In this document: positions 1-5,390 of the stretch, piece after piece
Numbering within the stretch: position 1 is the first letter of the stretch
How the letters are laid out: each line of letters starts with the position of its first letter
DNA from: Planctomycetota bacterium
Lineage (GTDB): Bacteria > Planctomycetota > Planctomycetia > Pirellulales > UBA1268
DNA: 57,741 nt
Assembly: GCA_018970605.1 (NCBI GenBank)
Contig: JAGWWA010000001.1
Span: 1 to 57,741 of the forward strand
Reading direction: 5' to 3'
The notes under the pieces: model-generated
Database searches by the model: none
What the model saw: only the letters and a program-made list of their open reading frames with translations
Told to the model about the DNA's origin: nothing
Made by a program: the position numbers and the translations under genes

Positions 1-60
1 AGTGCTGGTAGGATCATCCTGTTGTGGGGTGGCGGTGCTGTTGCCAGTCCACGACTCGGT

Positions 61-150
61 CCGGAACCACCCGATGCAAAGGACTCGCGGGCATCGTCGT
101 GCGTGGTGGCGAGCCCGTTGGTCGCGAGCCTTTGATCAGGGGCGTTCCGC
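61..150 (+). other. attC: integron attC recombination site 1
   Basis: R'' CCGGAAC (61-67), R' GTTCCGC (144-150); L'' GAT-g-CAAAGG-a-CTCGCG pairs with L' CGCGAGCCTTTGATC, leaving two unpaired bases in L''. Confidence 0.88.
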
Positions 151-563
151 CCCATCTCTGTCGCTTGCAAGAGCGAAGCAGACTCAGAGAGAGCCGCAGG
201 CGGGCCATCTCTTCTCCGATCTCTGGATAGGCAGAGGTCGTGGAGGTGTGGGCCACTGCGGCATGGGCTCATCGAGGCGAGGCCAAGCGGTAAGGGCTCG
301 ATGCAGAGCCAAGCCGCCTGTAGCGGAGCGGCGCTGGCCTTCGTCCCAATTTGATTCATCGCCAGGGAGTCGTTCGGTGTCTGCGGCCCGTTGCGGCGGG
401 CAGTCTCTCTTGGCGGGTATCCCCCGAGTGCTGGTAGGATCAGTGCGTCGCGGGGTAGAAGGCCAACTCCACGCTACGGTTGTGCCGGAACCACGCGATG
501 CAATGGACTCGATATCGTCCTGCGGTGTAGCGGGGCCAGTGGTCGAGCCATTGATCGCGGCCG
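145..563 (+). other. gene cassette without a convincing ORF
   Basis: Bounded by attC1 and attC2; no plausible + strand ORF lies inside, and the ORFs listed run across attC sites. Confidence 0.6.
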
Positions 564-569
564 TTCGGG
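485..569 (+). other. attC: integron attC recombination site 2
   Basis: R'' CCGGAAC (485-491), R' GTTCGGG (563-569); L'' GAT-g-CAATGG-a-CTCGA pairs with L' TCGAGCCATTGATC. Confidence 0.88.
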
Positions 570-584
570 GCATCGAGTCTCCCC

Positions 585-896
585 ATGACCGACAAGATCA
601 AGACTTCATTGCTAGGCCGCGAAACACTCGTCCTTGAGTGCAACGGCCAGCAGTTTGATCGGATCGTTCAGATGCTGGAGGCCGAGATAGAGCGACCCAT
701 CGGCGTTGTCGATGGCCACAAACTCCACGGCCTGATCATCAGCAATACAGATGCGCCAAAGCCGGGTGTATCGAAACGGCGTTTTAAGGATCGCGTTGCA
801 CTGCTCGGCTGCAGCCTAGTGGGCTTTGTCTTGCTGTTTGTGGTCGTCGTCGGAATACTGGCTATTACTGGGGTCACAGCGGGCTGGTGGCGGTAG
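585..896 (+). CDS. cassette-encoded hypothetical protein with a C-terminal transmembrane helix
   Basis: 103 aa; starts 16 nt after the attC2 R' core and stops 3 nt before attC3; C-terminus VALLGCSLVGFVLLFVVVVGILAITGV. Confidence 0.8.
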   Translation: MTDKIKTSLLGRETLVLECNGQQFDRIVQMLEAEIERPIGVVDGHKLHGLIISNTDAPKPGVSKRRFKDRVALLGCSLVGFVLLFVVVVGILAITGVTAGWWR

Positions 897-899
897 AGC

Positions 900-989
900 C
901 CCGAACCACCCAATGCAAAGGACTCGCGGGCATCGTCGTGCGTGACGGCGAGCCCGTTGGTCGCGAGCCTTTGATCAGGGCCGTTATCT
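900..989 (+). other. attC: integron attC recombination site 3
   Basis: R'' CCCGAAC (900-906), R' GTTATCT (983-989); nearly identical to attC1 internally, with the same two extrahelical bases. Confidence 0.9.
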
Positions 990-1011
990 TTGATGTCGCA
1001 GGTGCCGCACG

Positions 1012-1347
1012 GTGGGCCGCCCTAAACTCCGGACCGTTGTTGCGTTTGCGCTTGTCGCAGTTCCCGTGTGCGCGGGACTATTGGTGCAGGAGCGGCTCCA
1101 CGCGGGTCGTGAAGCAGCGGCCGCTATCCGGACTGGAATGAACCGCCCCGAAGTCGTTGGCCTACTCGGGGCCTTATATGACGATTGCCGCCCCGGCCAA
1201 TACGCCGCCGTTGATGCCACGCTTTTACAGATGGAGAATCGAGAGGCGATCTCTCGCGTAGCGCATTGGCGACTTGCTTTTTCTCGTGATCAACTGTGGG
1301 TGGGGTTTGGCGATGACGGCAAAGTGGTGTCGCTTCTCATGGAGTAG
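1012..1347 (+). CDS. cassette-encoded hypothetical protein, N-terminal signal or anchor
   Basis: GTG start; 111 aa; fits between attC3 and attC4; hydrophobic N-terminus TVVAFALVAVPVCAGLLV. Confidence 0.7.
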   Translation: MGRPKLRTVVAFALVAVPVCAGLLVQERLHAGREAAAAIRTGMNRPEVVGLLGALYDDCRPGQYAAVDATLLQMENREAISRVAHWRLAFSRDQLWVGFGDDGKVVSLLME

Positions 1348-1353
1348 CCTGGC

Positions 1354-1442
1354 AGATAACCACACGCTGGATCAGACGGCGGATAGAATCCAGCGGTGAC
1401 GCCGAGCCTATGGTCCGCCGCTGATCAGCTTTGGCGTTAGCC
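1354..1442 (+). other. attC: integron attC recombination site 4
   Basis: R'' AGATAAC (1354-1360), R' GTTAGCC (1436-1442); L'' GCTG-g-ATCAG-a-CGGCGGA pairs with L' TCCGCCGCTGATCAGC. Confidence 0.9.
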
Positions 1443-1457
1443 TCCCCGAAACTCACC

Positions 1458-2051
1458 ATGCCGACGTGTCGCTGTCCACACTGTGGGTCTGTATTTGAAG
1501 CGTCGAGCTCAAGCTTTGCGAAAGACTTCGAGTGCCCAACGTGTGCGCGCTCCTTTGTTCTTGACATCGACCATATCGCTCGCTTTGAGTTTCCCGAGCT
1601 ATTGGCCATCCGAGTTGTTGAATCAGATGGACGCGACTGGCAGGGCCCTGCCTTGCCAGTCTTGGTTCGTCGTGGTTGTCGACTTCCTCCGCTTCGCACC
1701 GATGGGAACGGCTGCGTGAGCGTATCGCGGGAGATGTATGAGCGAGCCACGCAGGAGTGGGTGGCCACCGATCTGATGGGCGCCAAAGGTGATTACAGCT
1801 GTGAGCGCTTTATCGAGGTACAAGTTCCCACGATCAGCGAAGGAATCGCCATCGCATCACAACGTGGCAAAAGCGGCTGGCCGATATCGCCGTTGGAGCA
1901 ATCGCTCTACGGTGACCTTGAGTCGCTTCTGCAGGCTTACGCTTTGCCGCTGGAAGCGGATGTTGGTTCGGCACAAACGACCATCGATCTGGCAACGTCG
2001 GCCCCGACTTTCCACGTCACCATTTCGGTCAATCGCGCCAAGCAAGGCTAA
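1458..2051 (+). CDS. cassette-encoded zinc-ribbon hypothetical protein
   Basis: Two CxxC pairs (CPHCG, CPTC); the stop codon TAA is part of the attC5 R'' core; start placed downstream of the attC4 R' core. Confidence 0.75.
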   Translation: MPTCRCPHCGSVFEASSSSFAKDFECPTCARSFVLDIDHIARFEFPELLAIRVVESDGRDWQGPALPVLVRRGCRLPPLRTDGNGCVSVSREMYERATQEWVATDLMGAKGDYSCERFIEVQVPTISEGIAIASQRGKSGWPISPLEQSLYGDLESLLQAYALPLEADVGSAQTTIDLATSAPTFHVTISVNRAKQG

Positions 2052-2134
2052 CCAGGCGTTGGAGCAGACTCGCGATAGTGTCCTGCGGTATGGTGAGTCT
2101 ATTGGCTGCGAGCTGCTCAACTTTGTCGTTCGCC
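2046..2134 (+). other. attC: integron attC recombination site 5 (last one seen)
   Basis: R'' GGCTAAC (2046-2052), R' GTTCGCC (2128-2134); L'' GTTG-g-AGCAG-a-CTCGC pairs with L' GCGAGCTGCTCAAC. Confidence 0.88.
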
Positions 2135-2215
2135 GAACCAAACCGAGTCTGGATTTGGTTGGGATCAGTACCGTGGGCACCCACGCTGGGCTCTTGAACC
2201 AAGATCGGTAGGAAC

Positions 2216-2635
2216 CTACCGAGCGATGATTCGGGCAAAATCTCGCGGATCGTGAACGTCGACAGGAGAGCGTGCGAATCCGGGGCCATCGCGTGTGACG
2301 ATCACGTCGACGGCGTGAGCAACGGCGGCGGAAATCAGGATGTCGTCCTCAAAATCCGGGCCGCCCCGTTCGACAGCGTCGCGAAGGATGTCACCGGTCA
2401 CCGCCAATATCTCGAGCGCCTCGAGACAAACCCGAACAGCGTCACGCTCGGCAAGTGCGTCCTCGGCTCGGTTCCTTCTCACGAGGTAGGCGAGAGTGTC
2501 GATGTTGCTGGCAAGAGCGCAGCATTGGATCCGACCAGTGCGATTCGCTTCCCAGATCGCCACCGCGTCGGTAAGCCATTCCTCCCGTTTCAGGAAGAGA
2601 TCGGCAAGGACGTTGACGTCTAGAAGAACCTTCAC
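2216..2635 (-). CDS. PIN-domain toxin, VapC-like
   Basis: MKVLLDVNVLADLFLKR start and DFEDDILISAAVAHAVDVIVTRD acidic motifs typical of PIN domains. Confidence 0.85.
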   Translation of the reverse strand: MKVLLDVNVLADLFLKREEWLTDAVAIWEANRTGRIQCCALASNIDTLAYLVRRNRAEDALAERDAVRVCLEALEILAVTGDILRDAVERGGPDFEDDILISAAVAHAVDVIVTRDGPGFARSPVDVHDPRDFARIIAR

Positions 2636-2886
2636 TGGCCGCCTTGAGCTTCCTTATGCTCGCGGATCCAGAGCCTGACGGTTTCGTCCGAAGGCCCGGG
2701 CCCCTGGTGGCCGAATCGGGCTATCACCTCAGCAGCTGTCGGGCCACCAGCGACCTTGATCGCCCCGCTACTTCGCCCCGCGTCGGCGGCCTTCAACCGC
2801 TCAATGAGCCGAGCACGAGCATCCGCCGGCCATTCCCGCGTGGTATCCACGATCGCGTTGATGTCTTCCGCCGATGGCCGAATCAT
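2632..2886 (-). CDS. antitoxin of the PIN-domain TA pair
   Basis: 84 aa; overlaps the start of the PIN gene by 4 nt (ATGA). Confidence 0.7.
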   Translation of the reverse strand: MIRPSAEDINAIVDTTREWPADARARLIERLKAADAGRSSGAIKVAGGPTAAEVIARFGHQGPGPSDETVRLWIREHKEAQGGQ

Positions 2887-2995
2887 GGCTTGTCTCCCGC
2901 CCCAGATCATAAACCGGCACGCCGGCCAAGGGCAGCGGAATTGATCGCGGGCGGGCATAGCCGCCCCGGCTCATCCCGTGCCCCCGGCCGCGGTC

Positions 2996-5116
2996 CTACG
3001 CCACGTCCTCTCCGCGTCCGCGTCGGTTCCGAGCCGCTGCCCGGCGGTCGTATTCGAGCCGAACCGTGATTTTGGGCCACGCAGGAGTCGCCTCGCCCGG
3101 CAGCGCCGGGATAATCCAACGGTCGGCGTTCAGGAACTCCCAAATGCCGACGTTTGGATCATCGGCCCGAACGCCCTTGCCGCGATCAAGGGCGGCAAAA
3201 GCCCGAAGTCCGTCGATCGTGAAGGTGGCGACCATGTCTGGGCTCCGCCGCCCTTCGACCGGCCGGGCCTCGATGACGACGTCGCCCACGAGGGCCTTGA
3301 GCACCTGGGCCGCGACGCCGATGTTGCCTTCGAGAAGCTCCCGGAGGTTCCCCAGCGCCACAACCACGTCCTGCTCACGAACCCTCGTCACGCCGGGCCG
3401 GCGGCCCGCCCGCTGGAGCTCCTTGAGATGCTCCCGCTTCGCCGCCAACTGTCGGCCCATGTCCTCGGCCTTGGCGATCACCGCGTCGAGGTGCGAGCCG
3501 TCCGCCTTCTCGAGCCGTTCGGTCACCCGCTTGAGCTGCCGATCGAGGTTGGTGATCTCCTGCTCGAGCTTCGTCGTCGAGGGGAGCGGCCGGCGAGCGA
3601 TCTCGGCCAGTCGGGCGTTGACCTCAGCCGTCAGGTCGGTCACGAATCCCTCGGCGAAGATCGCCGCCTTCACCGCCCTGAGCACCGCCTCGTCGATGAT
3701 CCGCGCCGACTTGTAGCCCCGGTTGGTGCAGCCCTTGATGCCGCTGTTGGCATTGTGGCAGCAGAAGCTCTGGTACTTGCCGACCGATCGGCCGAGGATC
3801 ATGGGCGTACCGCAGCCGCCGCAGACAGGCCGGATCAGCACCCGCGGATAGAGGTCCGCGCGATAGGTCTTCATCTTCTTGTCCTTCGCCGTGCGGCCGA
3901 AGGACTGGGCGGCGAGGTTCAACTTCCCGCGCACCGCTCCGGCTAACTCATCCGAGAGGATCCGCAGGTGCGGCGACTCCCGAACAAGCCATTCCGACTG
4001 CGGCAGCTTGACGGTGCGGATCTTGCCCGTCTGACGGTTTTTCTCCTGTCTCGACGTCCGGAACACCTCGCGGCCAATCAGCCGCTCGCGGGCATAGAGC
4101 TTGCGGACGCTGTTGTCGGACCACGTCTGCCGGTCGCCGACCCTGTGCTCGTTGAACAGCCGGGCGACCTCGACTGGGCTCTTGCCCTCGTGCGCGATCG
4201 ACTCCGCGCCGCGTACGATCCACGCGGCCGCCTCGGGGTCCACCTCGGCGCGCTTCTCGACCGTGCCCTTGTGGGTGATCACCGGGCCGCCGTCCGCGTT
4301 CGTGACCGTGACCATCCGATACCCGACACCCGGCGGCTGGATGTTGTCGCCGCGACGGAAGGCGTCGTCCATGCCCCGCCGCACCTTCGCCTTGAGCTGG
4401 GTGACGAAGGCCTCGTTCATCGACCCGATCACCGGAAGCAGCAGGGCCGAGTGGGGATTGTCACTGTCGAAGCCGTCACTGGCCCCGATGACCCGCACGC
4501 CGGTCGCCTCGGCAAGTTCGCCGAGCAGTAGCGACTCGATCGTATTGCGGCTCATGCGGGAGAGTTCGTCGACCACGAACCACGTCACGCCGAAATCGTT
4601 GCGACGCTCGAGCATGGTCTTCACGATCGTGTAGCCCCTGCGGCAGGCCAGCGTGCCGCTGACAGCGGCGTCGGCGAGGACGTACTGCCACGGGATGAAC
4701 ACGCCGTCGCGGCGGGCACGATTCAGGACGTTCAGGAGCTGCTGGTCGAGTGACCGGGGGTTCGAGTTCTCGTCGCTGAATCGGAGATACGCGACCCCGA
4801 GCGCCTCCCACAGCCGCGGTGTTGCCCCGGGGGCGAAGACCTCGGCTGCCTGGTCGCGGAACCGCCGCTCGAAGTCGTCGGCCATCGCCGCCATGACTGG
4901 CTCGGTGGCGGCGGGCACCGCCGGTGTGCCGGCGAGGTCCGGCCAGAGGCGGGCCTGCGTGTCGAGATAGGTGCGTGCCAGATCAACGAGCCCGGGCCGC
5001 TCCGGCATGCCGAAGTCAACGCTGCGAACCCGGCCACGGCCGGTCGCGGGGACGGAAGAGGAGGAATGGTCAAACGAAAATGAGCCGGCTCCGCCGGCGT
5101 TGGAAATGATGTCCAT
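2996..5116 (-). CDS. large serine recombinase / resolvase family
   Basis: N-terminal resolvase-like domain (YLRFSDEN...DELSRMSRN), recombinase domain, zinc ribbon (CGGCGTPMI...CCHN...CTN) and coiled coil. The ORF extends to 5194; likely start MDIISN. Confidence 0.9.
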   Translation of the reverse strand: MDIISNAGGAGSFSFDHSSSSVPATGRGRVRSVDFGMPERPGLVDLARTYLDTQARLWPDLAGTPAVPAATEPVMAAMADDFERRFRDQAAEVFAPGATPRLWEALGVAYLRFSDENSNPRSLDQQLLNVLNRARRDGVFIPWQYVLADAAVSGTLACRRGYTIVKTMLERRNDFGVTWFVVDELSRMSRNTIESLLLGELAEATGVRVIGASDGFDSDNPHSALLLPVIGSMNEAFVTQLKAKVRRGMDDAFRRGDNIQPPGVGYRMVTVTNADGGPVITHKGTVEKRAEVDPEAAAWIVRGAESIAHEGKSPVEVARLFNEHRVGDRQTWSDNSVRKLYARERLIGREVFRTSRQEKNRQTGKIRTVKLPQSEWLVRESPHLRILSDELAGAVRGKLNLAAQSFGRTAKDKKMKTYRADLYPRVLIRPVCGGCGTPMILGRSVGKYQSFCCHNANSGIKGCTNRGYKSARIIDEAVLRAVKAAIFAEGFVTDLTAEVNARLAEIARRPLPSTTKLEQEITNLDRQLKRVTERLEKADGSHLDAVIAKAEDMGRQLAAKREHLKELQRAGRRPGVTRVREQDVVVALGNLRELLEGNIGVAAQVLKALVGDVVIEARPVEGRRSPDMVATFTIDGLRAFAALDRGKGVRADDPNVGIWEFLNADRWIIPALPGEATPAWPKITVRLEYDRRAAARNRRGRGEDVA

Positions 5117-5200
5117 GAGAGTGACTTTCACGGGGCGAACGCTTGGTTCGCCTCCCGCGAAGGCACAACGGACTGACACCGGGTGCGGGCCCATGGCCCG

Positions 5201-5390
5201 TCACTTGATCGTCTTTCCGGCCTCCCCCAGCACCACCAGCTTCAGCACCTCTTCCCCGTCGAATTCGACGTATTCCGGGAAGATGGCCAGCGTGGCGATG
5301 TCGAGGGAGAACCGGTTATCCTTTGGACAGGGGCAGTCGCCCCGACTTTTCTGCGGCAGCCGGCCTTTTTGCCCAAAGCCCGTTTGGGCC
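5201..5390 (-). pseudogene. possible 3' gene remnant
   Basis: Minus-strand frame reads DNRFSLDIATLAIFPEYVEFDGEEVLKLVVLGEAGKTIK-stop; no upstream ATG/GTG/TTG seen in frame. Confidence 0.35.

Follow-up and report, generated by a model that had tools for sequence, protein, structure and literature searches.

Gene cassettes with five attC sites at a contig edge of a freshwater planctomycete, and a reverse-type integron integrase in the same genome

The first 2134 nucleotides of the DNA stretch analysed here (the window, 57,741 bp, which is the entire contig C31) are a real run of integron gene cassettes. The source genome, that of a freshwater Planctomycetota bacterium, comprises 2.86 Mb in 164 contigs and is 75.8% complete; the left edge of the window is an assembly break within the cassette array. 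We consider it highly probable that, in this genus of freshwater Planctomycetota, the run represents the distal portion of an array of integron cassettes on the chromosome, accompanied by a reverse-type IntI encoded on another contig of the same genome, C75. The structure of the attC sites, the IntI gene, the position of attI and sequence junctions lying exactly at the crossover point are demonstrated. The C75 IntI would act on the array of C31, as judged from the attC sites present in the same genome; the array may be joined to C75 now, may have been so formerly, or may have been seeded from it, and the way in which its cassettes are expressed is likewise something we infer.

attC sites and cassettes of the window

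Both strands of the 57,741 bp were scanned for AAC...GTT ends combined with an L''/L' stem of 14 bp in which two bases bulge out, and exactly five sites, the five attC only, were recovered (Table 1). The first-pass annotation, made by eye, had placed five attC sites of ~85–90 bp in one orientation at these positions, and both the coordinates and the scan bear it out, all five lying on the plus strand. It had also read two unpaired bases, g and a, in L''. Indeed, 13–14 of the 14 stem positions are paired in the five sites and the unpaired bases of the top strand are a G and an A, six pairs apart; the same pattern recurs in 33 of the 36 scorable sites of the genus. The two unpaired bases that give an attC stem its strand polarity are thus present in every site of the window. 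As for the ends (RYYYAAC ... GTTRRRY), AAC and GTT were found in 5/5 sites, with GTTRRRY matched loosely, which holds for the remainder of the genus too: C follows GTT in four of the five cores. Sites attC1 and attC3 share 94% identity across 86 bp.

Table 1. Features located in the window (positions in the 57,741-bp stretch)
Feature	Position	Strand	Description	Basis
attC1	61..150	+	R'' CCGGAAC, R' GTTCCGC; 97.3 bits with model R1	structure scan, fold
attC2	485..569	+	CCGGAAC ... GTTCGGG	structure scan, covariance model
attC3	900..989	+	CCCGAAC ... GTTATCT	structure scan, covariance model
attC4	1354..1442	+	AGATAAC ... GTTAGCC	structure scan, covariance model
attC5 (last site)	2046..2134	+	GGCTAAC ... 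GTTCGCC; crossover G at 2128	structure scan, covariance model, G012 junction 2127/2128
Cassette 2	144..484	+	about 340 bp; no convincing ORF	ORF list
Cassette ORF	585..896	+	103 aa, without a family match; a single C-terminal hydrophobic segment	
Cassette ORF	1012..1347	+	111 aa, without a family match; hydrophobic segment at the N terminus	
Cassette ORF	1458..2051	+	197 aa; two N-terminal CxxC motifs (zinc-ribbon-like); no family match	
Distal flank	2128..5334		95% identical to G012:C37 from the last GTT onward	
PIN-domain gene	2216-2635	-	in distal flank	
Probable antitoxin	within 2632-2958	-	in distal flank	
Large serine recombinase	2996-5194	-	in distal flank	

In the alignment of the five sites 93% of the cells are paired and 12 of the 21 pairs are altered on both sides. 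None of 500 shuffles reached these values, and sliding the partner by 1–3 columns lowered the pairing to 26–39%. When 31 sites of related genomes were aligned, the same covariation was seen, though this alignment was fitted to the model. Since the single-site folding energy of attC5 is only modestly better than that of shuffled sequences, it is covariation and spacing, rather than energy, that carry the structural claim. The covariance model, a check proposed in the first-pass annotation, scored the five window sites at 84–97 bits, being built from those same sites; applied to the whole genome, it detected five more attC sites on contig C77 (L100:56-2253) and nothing notable elsewhere. A search of Rfam matched no family.

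The logic of the cassettes is in agreement with these data. The core that starts a cassette is complementary to the R'' that closes it at 7/7 positions in three of the four complete cassettes of the window and at 6/7 in the remaining one, exactly as had been read by eye. When the C77 array was added, the match was full in 7/8 cassettes and covered 55/56 positions, compared to 39 expected by random pairing, and only 2 of 40,320 permutations were as good. A like mix of 7/7 and 6/7 core matches was described in a saliva study (PMC4909258).

Repeated hairpins do occur in the genus, including a 66-bp hairpin repeat near several arrays, and the sites might accordingly be read as unrelated REP-like elements or terminators rather than attC. 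We regard this as extremely improbable, given the conserved spacing of the bulges, the GTT/AAC ends, the single orientation, the core complementarity between both ends of each cassette, the junctions at GTT, and a genome that also encodes IntI and carries attI; the structure scan, covariation, cassette-core and junction results all contradict it.

As regards the cassettes themselves, cassette 1, which is closed by attC1, is truncated by the contig edge, and cassette 2 is probably devoid of an ORF. The sequence AGTGCTGGTAGGATCA, found at window positions 1-16 and 427-442, recurs toward the end of each, and the two look related. The three ORFs encoded by the other window cassettes matched no Pfam or NCBIfam family. 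Meanwhile one of the cassettes on C77 encodes a HicA-like toxin preceded by a small ORF at the position of HicB, a type of content that is ordinary for integrons, and another contains two genes, the first of which resembles the first cassette gene of the relative G012. With respect to a mobile (plasmid-borne) integron, positions 1-2134 gave 0 matches among 72,556 plasmid records, and a plasmid origin of the array was dropped.

Variation at the cassette boundary and the distal flank

Comparison with other strains was the second check proposed in the first-pass annotation, and here too the outcome is favourable. The congener G012 carries window positions 2127-5334 (3.2 kb) at 95% identity on its contig C37, adjoining attC sites of its own, and the match starts at the G of GTT in attC5 (2128; junction 2127/2128), so that the variation begins exactly at the cassette boundary. 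Over the 150 bp to the right of this GTT the two sequences are 90% identical, whereas to the left identity falls to 59% (attC against attC) and, further left, to 48%, the cassettes being different. According to the proposed mechanism, each cassette ends in an attC that on its bottom strand forms a hairpin bulged at two bases. This folded bottom strand would be recognised by IntI, which would cut beside the G of GTT and insert the cassettes by recombination at attI or at another att site. The strain comparison supports recombination of the IntI type, and junctions at GTT count as indirect support for its taking place on the bottom strand.

Beyond 5334 the sequences of the window and G012 diverge again, and hence this flank, in which a PIN-domain toxin with its probable antitoxin and the serine recombinase follow immediately on the last attC, may be a mobile unit that has moved in its own right. 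A general link between the array and the serine recombinase was discarded, as the relatives of the latter in congeners lie on contigs with no listed attC site. At L170:6145-6211 (G018:C4) there is a 66-bp repeat containing a perfect hairpin (GGATTTGAG...CTCAAATCC), and copies 95–98% identical to it lie past the final attC in several of the arrays of the genus.

Integrase, attI and the two platforms of the genus

The first-pass annotation had stated that there is no integrase in the window. This holds for the 57.7 kb of C31, where no tyrosine recombinase was matched, but not for the genome, in which such matches were obtained on contigs C75, C45, C134 and C125, the one on C75 (381-1385, minus strand) being a full-length IntI with a TIGR02249 score of 430 bits against a curated cut-off of 265. 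Its best relative of solved structure is the Vibrio cholerae integrase VchIntIA (2A3V), to which it aligns across residues 23-327, with the catalytic Arg, Lys, HxxR, His and Tyr as well as the IntI-specific insert present.

The classical layout implied in the first-pass annotation is not seen in the genome. Rather than diverging from the cassettes, the intI gene of C75 is directed toward them and toward the contig edge. About 256 bp past its stop codon lies attI (GAACCGCAGAATTATTG/GTTCACC), which is followed by an ORF in the same direction, and C75 ends ~124 bp beyond the attI crossover, within the first cassette. With intI on the cassette strand and attI after the stop codon, the layout is that of a reverse integron. 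In G012, the nearest relative (IntI 88% identical), the motif before the C75 attI core recurs at the same GTT with a different gene behind it. A motif like GNACCGNAGAATTACAA stands directly before GTT, after the intI stop codon, at the C75 locus and at about a dozen others of the IntI clade. The loci L021 and L023 share 95% identity over the 300 bp before the attI GTT, yet only 48% (unrelated sequence) beyond the 7-bp core, a drop that marks attI and shows that cassettes are exchanged there. In the related loci of the IntI clade attC sites are found downstream of intI on the same strand.

The intI gene is transcribed toward attI, with the first cassette following in the same direction. A sigma-70-like promoter was sought between intI and attI and, none being found, was rejected. 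The palindrome TGTAC-N4-GTACA (TGTACATCCGTACA) precedes intI on C75 (L001:1429-1442), where it has its single occurrence in the source genome, and is present in similar form before intI at six related loci. Its identification as a LexA box (SOS control) was rejected: it was not found before lexA, and it occurs 0–4 times per congener genome, mostly away from intI.

Integrons are common in the genus, attC sites being detected in 17 of 21 congeners and IntI above the TIGR02249 cut-off in 13. Three of them (G008, G011 and G017) harbour a second type of IntI, 46–47% identical to that of C75, and in G008 and G017 attC sites are arranged in the divergent, classical manner; an additional IntI encoded by G018, which is 50% identical to the C75 protein, was assigned to neither type. 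Trees were built from the congeners and the best 80 database relatives, and the orientation of related loci was read with a strict attC scan, giving 42 readable loci (20 reverse and 22 classical). A single change separates reverse from classical loci in a quick tree (88 rows) and two in a careful one (51 rows), in which the long branch of the second type (loci L164, L165 and L166 of G017, G008 and G011, respectively) shifts position; none of 500 shuffles gave a separation as low. Since the sample was chosen by similarity to the C75 IntI and the attC scan was strict, the trees do not establish one lineage for all reverse integrons. There is, in our opinion, an even chance that reverse integrons form one old lineage spanning Planctomycetota, Myxococcota, Acidobacteriota, Rokuibacteriota, Chloroflexota and other phyla, and that this genus combines the reverse platform with a separately acquired classical one (the 46–47% identical IntI), both sharing a pool of attC cassettes spread across several chromosomal arrays.

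Relation of the array to C75 and to known systems

While intI, attI and the start of the first cassette are situated on C75, the arrays lie on C31 and C77, both of which start at a contig edge, a pattern to be expected of an assembly interrupted at near-identical attC sites. To the right of the C31 array no intI occurs within 57.7 kb, and on the left the sequence stops at the contig edge. When the right flank of C77 was used to look for an empty site, G021 and G005 proved to have attC sites on the contigs concerned; on G014:C30 the genes are present and no site was detected. No contig of the genome joins IntI to the C31 array, and since no end overlap of C75 with C31 or C77 was found, joining them in this way was rejected. 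Because the two arrays compete for one attI, at least one of them is separate or derives from a missing second platform. With arrays outnumbering integrases in the genus, the window array may represent either a CALIN or the last stretch of the integron on C75.

The former possibility, whose likelihood we put slightly short of one half, assumes that the cassettes were inserted away from attI, at an attG-like site, or that intI was lost, the C75 integrase acting in trans. It is favoured by the two array ends facing one IntI in the genome and by congeners having more array places than integrases (eight clusters and two intI in G018). Moreover, the G018 array L170 replaces 164 bp of chromosome conserved in the relatives and retains a stretch similar to the 5' region next to intI of the second integron type, which suggests the decay of an integron platform; CALINs and off-target insertion have been described (PMC8618304, PMC12444791). 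The left end of the window array being missing, its insertion site is unreadable, and the link, or else a second intI, may lie in the 24% of the genome that is absent. Alternatively, the array would be the terminal section of the reverse integron on C75, split by assembly at the repeated attC sites. C75 stops inside the first cassette, C31 starts inside the array and the orientation fits; however, C77 fits equally well and no overlap of the ends was found, and we would stop just below an even chance for this reading too.

What was a by-eye reading is now a supported integron array in a genus where integrons are common. The array is new as an individual case, its kind (reverse integron, attC array) being already known. 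With reverse and classical platforms and the same attC type within one genus, these bacteria offer a natural test bed for the relation of integrase direction to cassette capture and expression, and also for the scattering of arrays over a chromosome.

In classical sedentary chromosomal integrons, such as those of Vibrio and Xanthomonas, intI and the cassettes diverge, with attI located upstream of intI. The system described here has in common with them the IntI family, the attI/attC logic, the cassette arrays and the CALINs elsewhere in the genome, but differs in that the C75 intI shares the strand of the cassettes and is followed, beyond its stop codon, by attI. Like a CALIN, defined as an attC array with no nearby integrase (Cury et al., as cited in PMC8618304), the C31 array has no integrase nearby, although here an assembly break may account for this, and an intI is present in the genome. 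The window belongs to the same phylum as the planctomycete attC group of Ghaly et al. 2021, for which a phylum-level attC model proved workable (PMC8352920). Reverse, or unusual, chromosomal integrons have been reported in Treponema denticola, Blastopirellula marina and Chlorobium phaeobacteroides (PMC3607928, PMC6557892). As in the Treponema type, intI is chromosomal and transcribed toward attI, in the direction of the cassettes, which are mostly of unknown function, some of them ORF-less or encoding toxin-antitoxin genes. The likeness is one of layout: the system reported here comes from another host group, its attC sites are 85–90 bp long with a bulged G and A on the top strand, and several arrays are present per genome.
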